This document shows, piece by piece, positions 21,366 to 38,686 of a stretch of 64,000 nucleotides of DNA; position 1 is the stretch's first letter; each line of letters begins with the position of its first letter. A program made the translations under genes and the position numbers. This stretch comes from an uncultured Bacteroidota bacterium (GTDB lineage Bacteria; Bacteroidota; Bacteroidia; UKL13-3), in contig CAIVZR010000025.1 of NCBI GenBank assembly GCA_903910445.1, positions 62,001-126,000 of the forward strand, read 5' to 3'. Below the pieces are notes generated by a model, which had not been told where the DNA came from, made no database searches, and saw only the letters and a program-made list of their open reading frames with translations.

Positions 21366-21483
21366 GGTAAATAAAAAGGGAAGATAGAAATTATTGTTGA
21401 AGTGGGGGGAGTGGGGGCTTTATTTTTGGGGTGGGCATGGGTGGGGTATGAGGTGACATGGATATATGATGTGTTAGTTTGTC

Positions 21484-21516
21484 CCCATAGGTAACTTTGA
21501 TGTTTCTTGTGTTTAA
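21484..21516 (+). repeat. Half copy of the two-hairpin repeat
   Basis: Contains only the left arm of palindrome P1 (CCCATAGGTAACTTTGATGT), then diverges after position 21504. It abuts full unit 1 and looks like a truncated leading copy of the array. Confidence 0.7.
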
Positions 21517-21634
21517 CCATAGGTAACTTTGATTTGCAATCAAAGCAACCTATGGTTACTCATCGTTGAACTGCGGTGCAGTTTTATACTGGGGGCACTT
21601 GATGAGGGGTTGGTAGAGTGTGATGCTATTTGCC
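21517..21634 (+). repeat. Two-hairpin repeat, unit 1 (118 bp)
   Basis: P1 at 21517-21555: CCATAGGT, AA bulge, CTTTGATT, TGC loop, AATCAAAG, CA, ACCTATGG. P2 at 21569-21583: AACTGC, GGT loop, GCAGTT. Then the common CTGGGGGCACTTGAT block and a GT-rich tail. Head-to-tail with unit 2. Confidence 0.92.
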
Positions 21635-21751
21635 CCATAGGTAACTTTGATGTTCCATCAAAGCAACCTATGGTAACTCATCGTAAAACTGCGATGCAGT
21701 TCTTTACTGGGGGCACTTGATAGAGGGTTGGTTGGGGTGATGCTTTTTGCC
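21635..21751 (+). repeat. Two-hairpin repeat, unit 2 (117 bp)
   Basis: P1 at 21635-21673 with the same outer stems but a GTTCC loop region between CTTTGAT and ATCAAAG; P2 at 21687-21701 with loop GAT; then the CTGGGGGCACTTGAT block and GT-rich tail. Nearly identical to unit 3. Confidence 0.92.
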
Positions 21752-21858
21752 CCATAGGTAACTTTGATGTTCCATCAAAGCAACCTATGGTAACTCATCG
21801 TTGAACTGCGATGCAGTTCTTTACTGGGGGCACTTGATAGAGGGTTGGTTGGGGTGAT
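21752..21858 (+). repeat. Two-hairpin repeat, unit 3, interrupted at its right end by the transposase cassette
   Basis: P1 at 21752-21790 and P2 at 21804-21818, nearly identical to unit 2. Identity to unit 2 stops after GGGGTGAT at about 21858, where the transposase cassette begins; the missing tail (GCTTTTTGC-like) reappears as TTTTTGC just before unit 4. Confidence 0.9.
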
Positions 21859-21880
21859 TATTTTTTTACTTGAAAATGGA

Positions 21881-21909
21881 TTGTTTTTTCGAGATAAATT
21901 TTATTTTTG
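21881..21909 (+). promoter_or_regulatory. Candidate transposase promoter
   Basis: TTG at 21881 and TATTTTTG (TAnnTTTG) at 21902-21909 with an 18-bp spacer, close to the Bacteroidota -33/-7 pattern. A start near 21916 gives a leader of about 25 bases. Confidence 0.5.
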
Positions 21910-21940
21910 AAGTATAATAAACTTATAAAAATTACAGCTT

Positions 21941-22387
21941 ATGTCGACCTACACACAAATTATTTATCATGTGATTTTCACAACGAAAAATCGGGAGAAG
22001 AATTTACTTGAACTGAATCAAAAAAGACTTTATCGATTTATTTGTCAGACTATCGAAAACAAGAATTGCAAGGTTTTTCAAATTAATGGGATGGAGGATC
22101 ATATGCATCTGGCGATTTTTCTTCATCCTTCGATATCACTTTCCGACCTTGTTAAGGACATAAAGGTTTCATCAAATTATTGGATTAGAAGAGAGAAAAT
22201 TTTTCCAAACTTCAAATCGTGGCAGATTGGGTATGGAGCTTTCAGCTACTCAATAAAGGAATTGCCAAGGGTGGTACGATATATCAAGAATCAGAAAGAG
22301 CATCATAGAAAGAAGTCTTATATAGAAGAAAGCATCAAGTTATTGGAGGATAATGGGGTGAAATATGATGAGGCGTTTTTGTTTTGA
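21941..22387 (+). CDS. Y1 (HUH) transposase, IS200-like / REP-associated tyrosine transposase
   Basis: A 148-residue single-stranded DNA transposase of the Y1 HUH family (PF01797). The HUH metal site is DHMHLAIF at about residues 49-56, and the catalytic Tyr is in RYIKNQKEHH near residue 117. Such enzymes cut and join at hairpins in single-stranded DNA. It is flanked on both sides by identical two-hairpin repeats in the same orientation, which is the arrangement expected of a RAYT with its REP elements, though 148 residues is closer to IS200 TnpA and the group cannot be settled by eye. No associated tnpB is present. The gene appears intact. Confidence 0.9.
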   Translation: MSTYTQIIYHVIFTTKNREKNLLELNQKRLYRFICQTIENKNCKVFQINGMEDHMHLAIFLHPSISLSDLVKDIKVSSNYWIRREKIFPNFKSWQIGYGAFSYSIKELPRVVRYIKNQKEHHRKKSYIEESIKLLEDNGVKYDEAFLF

Positions 22388-22451
22388 GGGTGTGCATTTT
22401 TTCTCTTAGTGTCTTTGATTTGACTGTCTTTTATCTGTAGGACTTTTTGCA

Positions 22452-22568
22452 CCATAGGTAACTTTGATTTGCAATCAAAGCCACCTATGGTTACTGAGGG
22501 TTGAACTGCGATGCAGTTCTTTACTGGGGGCACTTGATACAGGGTTTTTAGAGTGTGAGGCTTTTTAT
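22452..22568 (+). repeat. Two-hairpin repeat, unit 4, downstream of the transposase
   Basis: P1 at 22452-22490 with the TTGATTTGCAATCAA core as in unit 1, but CC in place of CA in the internal bulge; P2 at 22504-22518; then CTGGGGGCACTTGAT and a diverged tail. Same orientation as units 1-3. The 22388-22451 stretch before it shows no gene. Confidence 0.9.
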
Positions 22569-22637
22569 TTTTAAGCAAACTGTGTCACCATTCGTGTCTT
22601 TCCCATCTTGGATATAACTCCTGAATTCATAAAAAAC

Positions 22638-22743
22638 AACTGCCCCGCAGTTGAACCATTAGTAACTATAGGTGGCAATATGCGCAGCAGATTGACACCT
22701 ATAGGACAAACAAAGCTGCGAAGCAGATTGGCACCTATAGGAC
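22638..22743 (-). repeat. Diverged inverted copy of the repeat plus 21-bp direct repeats
   Basis: 22638-22652 is AACTGC CCC GCAGTT (a P2 hairpin) followed by GAACCATTAGTAACTATAGG, which matches the reverse complement of the P2-P1 junction of units 1-4. CTATAGGTG (22666-22674) pairs with CACCTATAG (22696-22704). GCAGATTG(A/G)CACCTATAGG recurs at 22687 and 22723, 36 bp apart. The rest of 22569-22884 shows no gene. Confidence 0.65.
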
Positions 22744-22884
22744 TACAAAAGCCGTGAAGCATCGAGAGCAGTAAAATACAACCAAATCAGTCTTTCGCAT
22801 CTCAAAATCCTCGTCATTGTCACACAAAATTTAAAATTCGTTTTTCATTCCTTAACTTGCACCCCGATTCAAAATAAACCTATT

Positions 22885-36250: not shown

Positions 36251-38686
36251 TTAAAATTCAAATAATAATCCAATGGAAGGGACTACGGTAGCCGATTTAT
36301 TCTCGAGCACCAAAGGCACGGCATTCGATCCATCAAGTTTCACAGGTTGTCCGTCGGTAGTTTCAAAGCCAGTATTATCGGCATTGCGCTTAAATAAATA
36401 ATCGGGGTTGCCTTCGTTCTTGAATCCAAAAGCATTTTGCAAATCCAAGTAGATATCCAAAGAAGTTTTCTTGTAATTTATTTTTTTATCAATACGCAAA
36501 TCAAGCTGTTGAAACGATTGTAATCGTTGCGTATTTAATTTTGTATTGTCTAAAATTCCTTTGCCAAGTAACATGAAGTTTTGTTGCGATGCTACCAAAT
36601 CGTATGGTGTATAAGGCGATCCCCCGGCATATCTGTATTTCAAGCCTAGTTCATATCCTCGTTTAAATTTCACACCCAAGGTTGCCGAAATTAAGTGGCG
36701 GTTGTCCCATGATGATGGAATCAACTCTCCATTATTTCCTGAGAATTTGCTTCTCACGAAAGTGTAACTCACCACATAAAAAACTTTCTTCACTAATTTT
36801 TGTTGCACAAACAATTCAAATCCGTAGGTCTCTCCTTTGCCTGTGCTCGTTACCTTTTCGCTGCCAATGGCACCAAAGTCGGAACCCTGATTTGCCAATG
36901 AAACGCCACTTCCTGCAGATACAGGATAGTTGCGATACTGTTTGTAGAATCCTTCAATAGTAAATCGTAAAGCCTCATTCGGAAGGTATTGTGTACCCAA
37001 TACATAATGCGTGGATTGAATGTATTTCATCGATTTATTTACATAGGTATTCGATGCATCTTTATATCCTAATGAAGTATAAGTTGGGATTTTATAATAA
37101 TTGCCAATCGAACCTGTAATATCGAATTTCGATGTTACATGATAGGCAACGGAGAATCGAGGCGACAAGGTACTCAGTGGATTGAAACCCTTATTCATGA
37201 AGGAGTTCATGTCGGTGCGCAATCCCAAAGATATGAGGATTCTGTTATGCATCATGTTCTTTGCCGCTTGTGCAAAGGCGCCATACTTTGAAAAATCCAT
37301 GGAGCTTTTTTGTTTGATGGTGATGCCAGGAACAATGGTATTTCCCAGACTGTCTTTGATATCGCTGCTAATTTTACTGTAGAGGTCGGTATTGTATTTT
37401 ACATATTGAGCGGAGACACCACCAGTTATTTTCCATCCTTTGATATAGGTATTGATATCGTATCGAAATTTATTTTCTATTTCTTGCGATTGCAATTTGA
37501 ATGTACGCAATGCCTCAACTTTGGCTGCGTCATCAAATTTGTCAAGTTGATTATTGAACATATCTCTGCTCAACGAAAAATTCATGAAGCCTCCTTTGAA
37601 TGTTCTTTTTAATACGAAGCCTGTGGTATAGTTCCATTGATTGATATATGGCAATGAGCGTACGATGAATACATTTTCGAGAGTTGAGGTTTTTGTGGTT
37701 GCAAAAGAGAAACGATCGATAGCCCCAAGACCAATGGCTGTAAGCGTTGTCTTCTCATTGAAACGATGCGTTACCTTGTATTGAAAATCATAAAAATTAG
37801 GACGGATAGGTAAATCAATTAAAGAGAATAATAAATCGAGATACGACTTACGTGCAGAAGCCAGGAATGTTGTTTTCTTGTTAATGGGTCCTTCCAAAGT
37901 GAGAACCGACTCCGTTAAGCTTGCTCTCACATTCCCTGATAAACGATCTGGATTTCCATCTCTTTGCTTGATCACGAAAGTAGATGCCAGTGCATTATCG
38001 TAACGTGCATCGAAAGCCGAAGAGCTTAACTTTAAATCTTCAATGAACGATACATTCAAGATTCCTTGTGCACCACCGGAGCTGCCTTGAGTTTGAAAAT
38101 GATTGAGTACCGGAATTTCAATCCCATCTAAATAGTATATGTTTTCGTTGGGTGCGCCTCCTCTGATGATGATATCATTTCTTGATGGGCCTCCACTACT
38201 TCCTCCAACACCAGGAAGTGTTTGAACCACCCGCGAAACGTCGAAATTACCTCCAGGATTACTCCGAATTTCTTCGGAAGTAAGTTGTTGCACAGAAAGA
38301 GGAGTGATCATATCAGCAGCTGCGGCAGATTTGCCTTTCTCATATTTAATTTCAACTTCTCCAAGTTGAGATGTTGATGGCTCCATTTCGAAATTCACAA
38401 ACTGTGCATTTCCTGATGATACCGCGATATTATATTTAATGAGCGGAGTATATCCTATGTATTGGGCTTTAACATTATAGGTGCCAACCGGAATTACAAT
38501 CTTAAAATTTCCATCGATATCGGTACTTGTTCCTATGGTGGTTCCTTCAATGACTACGGTTCCTCCAATGATTACTTCCTGGGTATTTTTATCTTTTAAC
38601 TGACCACGAATGATGCCCGTATTTTGGGCTGAAAGGGTTACAGAAAGGAAAGTTAGCAGGCTGAATAAAATATTTTTGAATGACAT
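36251..38686 (-). CDS. TonB-dependent receptor with CarboxypepD regulatory-like domain
   Basis: An 811-residue outer-membrane receptor. After a signal peptide (FSLLTFLSVTLSAQ) comes a carboxypeptidase-regulatory-like domain (about residues 25-110, IRGQLKDKNTQEVIIGGTVV), the plug domain (about 125-230, FDVSRVVQTLPGVGG, NDIIIRGGAPNENIYYLDGI) and a 22-strand-type barrel ending in an aromatic-rich tail with terminal Phe (VPSIGLLFEF). No TonB box motif is clear and no SusD partner follows, so this is not a glycan-uptake locus. With MbnP and MbnH downstream, uptake of a metal or metal complex is a reasonable guess. A divergent MarR gene and a candidate promoter lie upstream. Confidence 0.92.
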   Translation of the reverse strand: MSFKNILFSLLTFLSVTLSAQNTGIIRGQLKDKNTQEVIIGGTVVIEGTTIGTSTDIDGNFKIVIPVGTYNVKAQYIGYTPLIKYNIAVSSGNAQFVNFEMEPSTSQLGEVEIKYEKGKSAAAADMITPLSVQQLTSEEIRSNPGGNFDVSRVVQTLPGVGGSSGGPSRNDIIIRGGAPNENIYYLDGIEIPVLNHFQTQGSSGGAQGILNVSFIEDLKLSSSAFDARYDNALASTFVIKQRDGNPDRLSGNVRASLTESVLTLEGPINKKTTFLASARKSYLDLLFSLIDLPIRPNFYDFQYKVTHRFNEKTTLTAIGLGAIDRFSFATTKTSTLENVFIVRSLPYINQWNYTTGFVLKRTFKGGFMNFSLSRDMFNNQLDKFDDAAKVEALRTFKLQSQEIENKFRYDINTYIKGWKITGGVSAQYVKYNTDLYSKISSDIKDSLGNTIVPGITIKQKSSMDFSKYGAFAQAAKNMMHNRILISLGLRTDMNSFMNKGFNPLSTLSPRFSVAYHVTSKFDITGSIGNYYKIPTYTSLGYKDASNTYVNKSMKYIQSTHYVLGTQYLPNEALRFTIEGFYKQYRNYPVSAGSGVSLANQGSDFGAIGSEKVTSTGKGETYGFELFVQQKLVKKVFYVVSYTFVRSKFSGNNGELIPSSWDNRHLISATLGVKFKRGYELGLKYRYAGGSPYTPYDLVASQQNFMLLGKGILDNTKLNTQRLQSFQQLDLRIDKKINYKKTSLDIYLDLQNAFGFKNEGNPDYLFKRNADNTGFETTDGQPVKLDGSNAVPLVLENKSATVVPSIGLLFEF

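Follow-up and report, generated by a model that had tools for sequence, protein, structure and literature searches.

A tandem hairpin array around a Y1 transposase gene in Bacteroidota and its probable origin from the gene's own end sequences

The window analyzed here, a 64,000-nucleotide stretch of a contig from an uncultured Bacteroidota bacterium, contains a tandem array of hairpin-forming repeats interrupted by a transposase gene. Repeat comparison resolved four copies of a 117-nt unit, 79–100% identical to the reference copy, all on the forward strand. Three lie upstream of the gene (unit 1, 21502–21618; unit 2, 21620–21736; unit 3, 21737–21853) and one lies downstream in the same orientation (unit 4, 22437–22553), and a partial copy comprising the start of the P1 hairpin precedes them (21478–21501, forward strand). 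In unit 3, the P1 hairpin spans 21752–21790 and the P2 hairpin spans 21803–21819. Tandem Repeats Finder gave a period of 117, 91% matches and a score of 575 for 21517–21865, indicating that the repeat did not arise by chance. The non-unit stretch between units 3 and 4 (21859–22443, forward strand) contains one open reading frame (21941–22387, forward strand), which encodes a 148-aa protein of the Y1 (HuH) transposase family. Downstream of unit 4, a module-like stretch on the reverse strand (22634–22676), opposite in orientation to unit 4, is 84% complementary to 22480–22522, and repeat searches found a 36-nt direct repeat of 2.2 copies (22681–22761, forward strand) with CACCTATAGG cores resembling the P1 stem. 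In the one close relative that has both array and gene (G003), a truncated unit is fused straight to this 36-nt repeat, likely through a deletion between similar palindromes. Elsewhere in the window, an 18-nt tandem repeat is present in two copies at 38540–38575. An Rfam search returned one chance-level match (MIR2646, 18.6 bits; gathering score, 245). The genes neighboring the locus presumably encode a permease-like and a ketobutyrate-ligase-like protein.

The initial annotation of the window had noted that units 2 and 3 are alike through GGGGTGAT, after which a cassette of about 585 bp begins near 21859. Both observations hold: unit 2 reads GGGGTGAT followed by GCTTTTTGCC, unit 3 reads GGGGTGAT up to 21858, where the unit pattern breaks off, and the non-unit sequence from 21859 to 22443 is 585 bp long. 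The pattern restarts with CTTTTTGC at 22443–22450, leading into unit 4. The junction is therefore real, but its sequence had to be corrected: the common joint is CTTTTTGC and not GATGCTTTTTGC, because the preceding bases differ, being GATG between units 2 and 3 and TAGGA before unit 4.

The encoded protein was assigned to Y1_Tnp (Pfam PF01797, E 1.7e-24), and alignment to 2a6m identified it as a sequence relative of ISHp608 TnpA. In this alignment, the HuH motif of ISHp608 TnpA falls opposite His54 and His56 and its Tyr motif opposite Tyr114; we take these motif residues to be the catalytic ones. Among the NCBIfam models, IS200 scored above its cut-off and RAYT scored 30 bits, below its cut-off of 80. 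The protein carries the motifs DHMH, SWQ and YIKNQKEHH, and the signature Y---Q--HH is present in 87 of 90 relatives, a set that includes proteins from its own genome (G000) and genus. In the accessible text of Quentin et al. 2018 (PMC6006769), Y---Q--HH is the signature of TnpA_Y1 subclass 1.2, a subclass that is also described there with a C-terminal domain specific to it, and by sequence the window protein is a member of this subclass. Its own genome has five such genes and shows the low copy number and divergent copies typical of subclass 1.2: the other four proteins are 37–56% identical to the window protein, and no near-identical second copy of the gene was found in that genome. Class-wide, a relative at E <= 1e-15 is present in 140 of 296 genomes. 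Between G000 and G003, the gene has a dN of 0.030 and a dS of 0.385 (0.004 and 0.428 for a neighbor gene) and is thus under purifying selection. The protein is not a class 2 RAYT, which would carry Y---NP in place of YIKNQ, and neither the RAYT score nor the foot of the repeats agrees with that class, as no 5' GT[AG]G foot was found on the aligned modules of the window's clade; subclass 2.6 and class 3 likewise lack this foot in the excerpted text of PMC6006769. Nor do the lack of near-identical copies and the presence of the gene at the same site in G000 and G003 speak for a mobile IS200/IS605 element.

To place the locus in its evolutionary context, we compared it across the genus and family. 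The unit has five matches in its own genome, every one at the window locus. In the family, 56 of 58 genomes have no unit match, and the remaining two, G000 and G003, both hold the gene. In G003, the gene is 95% identical, the neighbors and the upstream junction are the same, and unit 3 together with the leader is identical at 181 of 201 aligned positions. In three congeners (G001, G002 and G004), the two neighbor genes lie next to each other, their coding regions separated by 192, 248 and 365 bp, respectively, compared with 1519 bp in the window. Neither the unit nor the gene was found at the orthologous spot in these genomes, which therefore represent an empty locus lacking array and gene together; its exact boundary is unmappable because the intergenic DNA is too diverged. 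An array without the gene was seen in none of the 58 family genomes. According to the initial annotation, an empty site running from unit to unit would support precise insertion; our comparisons recovered no such site for the boundary between units 3 and 4. In G003, contig C106 (L078) ends with one unit and the start of the cassette, and contig C97 (L079) starts within an array that has three or more units; the two overlap by 109 nt and differ in the number of units before the cassette, which may reflect population variation or assembly ambiguity.

Of 11 loci with such a gene examined in the genus, 9 have short palindromic repeats on both sides of the gene, each locus with a repeat family of its own, and no such repeats were found at the other two (L092 and L093). 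Two of the sister loci are comparable between G000 and G003. At one of them (L084/L088), the unit types are AB in G000 and ABAB in G003; at the other (L086/L090), there is one unit in G000 and two in G003. The second G003 copy at L086/L090 opens with TTAATGCATTGCAATA, the 16 nt at the 3' end of the transposase gene, indicating that the duplication began inside the gene end and the array grew outward. At both loci the number of units varies while the gene has not moved. At a further locus (L085), the whole package of 1112 bp is missing in G003, where 82 unalignable bases are found instead. The site of L083 is empty on one side only, since the G000 contig starts inside the element. A clean empty site was recovered neither in the three congeners nor at L085 in G003 or L083.

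We then examined whether matching flanks are a general property of such genes. The sample comprised one gene from each of 80 of the 140 class genomes with a relative, plus the genes of the window's own genome and genus; 84 of the 85 genes entered in the flank test were usable. The upstream and downstream 400-nt flanks were compared in inverted or direct orientation against a null of 1008 mismatched pairs. The flanks are alike beyond the 99th percentile of the mismatched pairs for 41 of 84 genes and beyond their maximum for 31, and the direct score exceeds the null maximum for 22 of 84. None of 76 distal flanks (1400–1800 nt away) and none of 28 flank pairs of a control gene passed the 99th percentile. 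The other 43 genes failed the test, though many of them have hairpins. Noncoding DNA contains 5.48 hairpins/kb next to the gene and 2.05/kb in other parts of these loci, the latter being a fairer control than the distal regions (0.69/kb), which are mostly coding and overstate the contrast. Three loci (L012–L014) have direct flank scores of 80–140 and long hairpins resembling the H2 hairpin described below. Outside Bacteroidota, a relative at 2008–2445 of a Pyrinomonadaceae record (L020) is flanked by matching inverted hairpins (inverted score 79). A common 3' tag (GGTNGGTAG or TAG) beside the hairpins of other clades is not claimed because its frequency, 39 of 100 hairpins, is not above that in shuffled sequences (mean 33.2, maximum 45). 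In the part of Quentin et al. 2018 that treats subclass 1.2 (PMC6006769), the subclass is listed with REP 'no' and as generally lacking typical terminal IS200-type structures, both being descriptive traits rather than a basis of the classification. The matching flanks of these 41 genes and the mirrored hairpin ends of the window's clade depart from this description.

In a tree of 90 proteins, the window protein falls in a group of 18 rows with a support of 98/90, the bootstrap being not fully settled. Many upstream ends in this clade share one plan, consisting of H1, an 11-nt linker, H2, approximately 25 nt, H3 and the gene. H1 is a 7-bp stem with a loop that is mostly GAA, H2 is an 8-bp stem with a GAA or GCA loop, and the linker is close to AATATGAATAA. 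The downstream ends are the mirror image of this plan, with TTC loops. In a simple scan, 13 of 18 clade genes had the 47-nt H1-linker-H2 module in their vicinity, with 35 nearby matches, some of which are one site in two registers; the 72 loci of other clades gave 19 matches, close to what shuffled DNA gives (11 matches in 0.48 Mb). Twenty-two modules align without gaps. In this alignment, 13 of 15 stem pairs have changed on both sides, and the covariation score is 0.719 compared with 0.201 in column shuffles. The modules are 97.6% paired, partly by construction because the alignment rows were picked for pairing, and slid structures are at most 51% paired. Rows were chosen with a linker match of at least 6/11, but not everything that is conserved in the loops and linker entered into the selection. 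The stems vary between paralogs and the loops and linker stay constant.

Screening 48 genomes with a covariance model of the module gave copies in 16 of the 18 that carry a clade gene, at 2–48 copies each, and in 4 of the 30 that do not. These four comprise 3 of 12 genomes whose subclass 1.2 genes all lie outside the clade and 1 of 18 for which no relative was listed. The model found no match in two of the clade-gene genomes (G143 and G132). Since 12 of the 18 had supplied rows for the model, at least one match in each of these is by construction; of the remaining six, four were positive. One genome (G089) has modules and no relative at E <= 1e-15. Among the matches listed, the share of inverted pairs (plus then minus) for modules no more than 400 bp apart was 9/12 in G000, 7/9 in G101 and 0/8 in G009.

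The scattered copies in G000 and G003 are largely gene-less derivatives of the element of one paralog, C18. At 12 of 15 loci examined in these genomes, we found 15 pairs of right and left ends (RE-LE) in the gene-like order with no match to the gene. Their right boundary is sharp, lying a few bases past H1, and one internal joint is common to 8 of 14 aligned gene-less copies, which suggests that one deleted form has spread. These miniatures are about 200–300 bp in length (L239–L252), and extra tandem RE copies lie beside several of them, as beside the C18 gene (L083, G000:C18). Modules were also found where no cognate C18-type gene was found (31 in G003, 15 in G002, 6 in G004 and 7 in G089), which lost genes or assembly gaps would explain. 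When one scattered doublet (L241) was compared with G003:C36, the two genomes differed in having a doublet as opposed to a lone module, and no clean insertion was seen.

The cognate palindromes of the C18 paralog and of the clade are scattered through the genome, whereas the window unit is only local. Units 2 and 3 match the upstream end of C18 over the H2 arm, linker and H1 with a score of 31, compared with a maximum of 25 in 300 shuffles. P1 shares its outer stem (CCATAGGT/ACCTATGG) with C18 and has a larger inner hairpin; P2 is formed by ACTGC/GCAGT. The module model matched the window units weakly (12.4 bits, E 0.35) and a G003 unit at 17 bits (E 0.023). The window units lack the third hairpin, H3, and are direct on both sides of the gene rather than mirrored, an orientation that also occurs at other loci, as the direct flank scores given above show. 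We read them, with a weak model match, as a diverged form of the clade module and a local derived member of it, comparable with the locally concentrated REPs reported for Marinomonas in the accessible text of Corneloup et al. 2021 (PMC8266576). The suggestion in the initial annotation that the junction might be an element boundary is supported in substance, as the units look like the hairpin modules found at the ends of the gene's relatives.

Together, the anatomy of the locus, the association of gene and repeats, the covariation, the scattering in the clade and the tandem growth next to an unmoved gene at two sister loci make it probable that the repeat units belong to the transposase gene as its own ends and were multiplied later as modules on its flanks. 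The ancestor of G000 and G003 would already have had the gene with its modules between the two neighbor genes. The modules would then have multiplied in tandem on both flanks, which would explain why the gene appears today to lie precisely where two units meet. The putative enzyme would most likely bind the folded module in single-stranded DNA and cut and rejoin beside it, copying or moving modules and gene-less miniatures in trans. Folded DNA is recognized, cut and rejoined in this way by IS608, ISDra2 and E. coli TnpA_REP, according to excerpts of PMC6006769 and PMC8266576. By analogy, we infer binding, cleavage and a single-strand route for the present enzyme. The tandem growth may be driven by it or by plain slippage between hairpins, as the data agree with either.

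Other explanations were weighed against this one. A precise insertion of the cassette into a pre-existing array where units 3 and 4 meet, or a cassette still able to leave it, as the initial annotation had proposed, would account for the sharp joints on both sides of 21859–22443. Because array and gene occur or are missing together, with no gene-free array in the 58 family genomes and empty loci that lack both, and because units are gained beside a fixed gene at the sister loci and matching flanks are common around such genes, we consider this insertion very unlikely. The IS200 model score would fit a conventional IS200-like insertion sequence, mobile as one unit and with duplicated subterminal hairpins, and so would the absence of the package from the window locus in three congeners and from L085 in G003. 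Yet the divergent single copies, the purifying selection and the shared position in G000 and G003 do not favor such an element, and it appears unlikely. It is also very unlikely that the palindromes are ordinary intergenic structures, such as terminators or attenuators, amplified by slippage and unrelated to the enzyme. Tandem growth would need no enzyme, and other noncoding DNA of the same loci also has hairpins, albeit at the lower density given above. However, such structures would explain neither the matching of flanks around these genes and not around the control gene, nor the conserved loops and linker with covarying stems, nor the presence of the module following that of the clade gene.

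On balance, we favor the view that the subclass 1.2 Y1 proteins of Bacteroidota are the enzymes of their own REP-like systems and that the substrate in the window's clade is the covarying, gene-tracking paired-hairpin module spread by miniatures. If so, they would form a lineage of REP/REPIN-like mobile DNA separate from, and beside, the IS200 transposases, without GTAG or the class 2 motif. This would supply a DNA substrate for a widespread, functionally blank HuH group and account for a set of palindromes dispersed through the genomes of Bacteroidota. It also cautions that a gene at a repeat junction does not equal an insertion, as here the repeats seem to be the gene's own. Searches of the open-licence PMC literature listed nothing on repeats of subclass 1.2, and the REP 'no' listed for it in the consulted part of PMC6006769 should be revisited.

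Compared with known systems, the window protein resembles subclass 1.2 as far as PMC6006769 describes it in its length (148 aa), its WQ and YIKNQKEHH motifs, its low copy number with divergent copies and its occurrence in Bacteroidetes, and it differs in the hairpin repeats that flank about half of the tested genes. IS200/IS605 elements, which cleave single strands at sites selected through guide sequences, share with their miniatures the Y1 HuH transposase, hairpin ends and gene-less derivatives with both ends, whereas the present genes have no near-identical copies, carry tandem arrays of ends and occupy one place in two species. The TIRtrons of Di Nocera 2013 (PMC3733652, in part) likewise consist of Y1 genes between inverted repeats that are not GTAG REPs, but their TIRs are distinct from self-complementary REPs, and here each repeat is a set of hairpins. 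REPtrons and RAYTs, as far as described by Nunvar 2010 (PMC2817692) and Corneloup 2021 (PMC8266576), show one gene per repeat family, repeats both beside the gene and scattered, and, with REPINs, inverted doublets in some genomes and purifying selection; the differences lie in Y---Q--HH instead of Y---NP, the missing 5' GTAG foot and the two linked hairpins. Clade-wide, the system works like a REPtron, in which the enzyme would act on the module.
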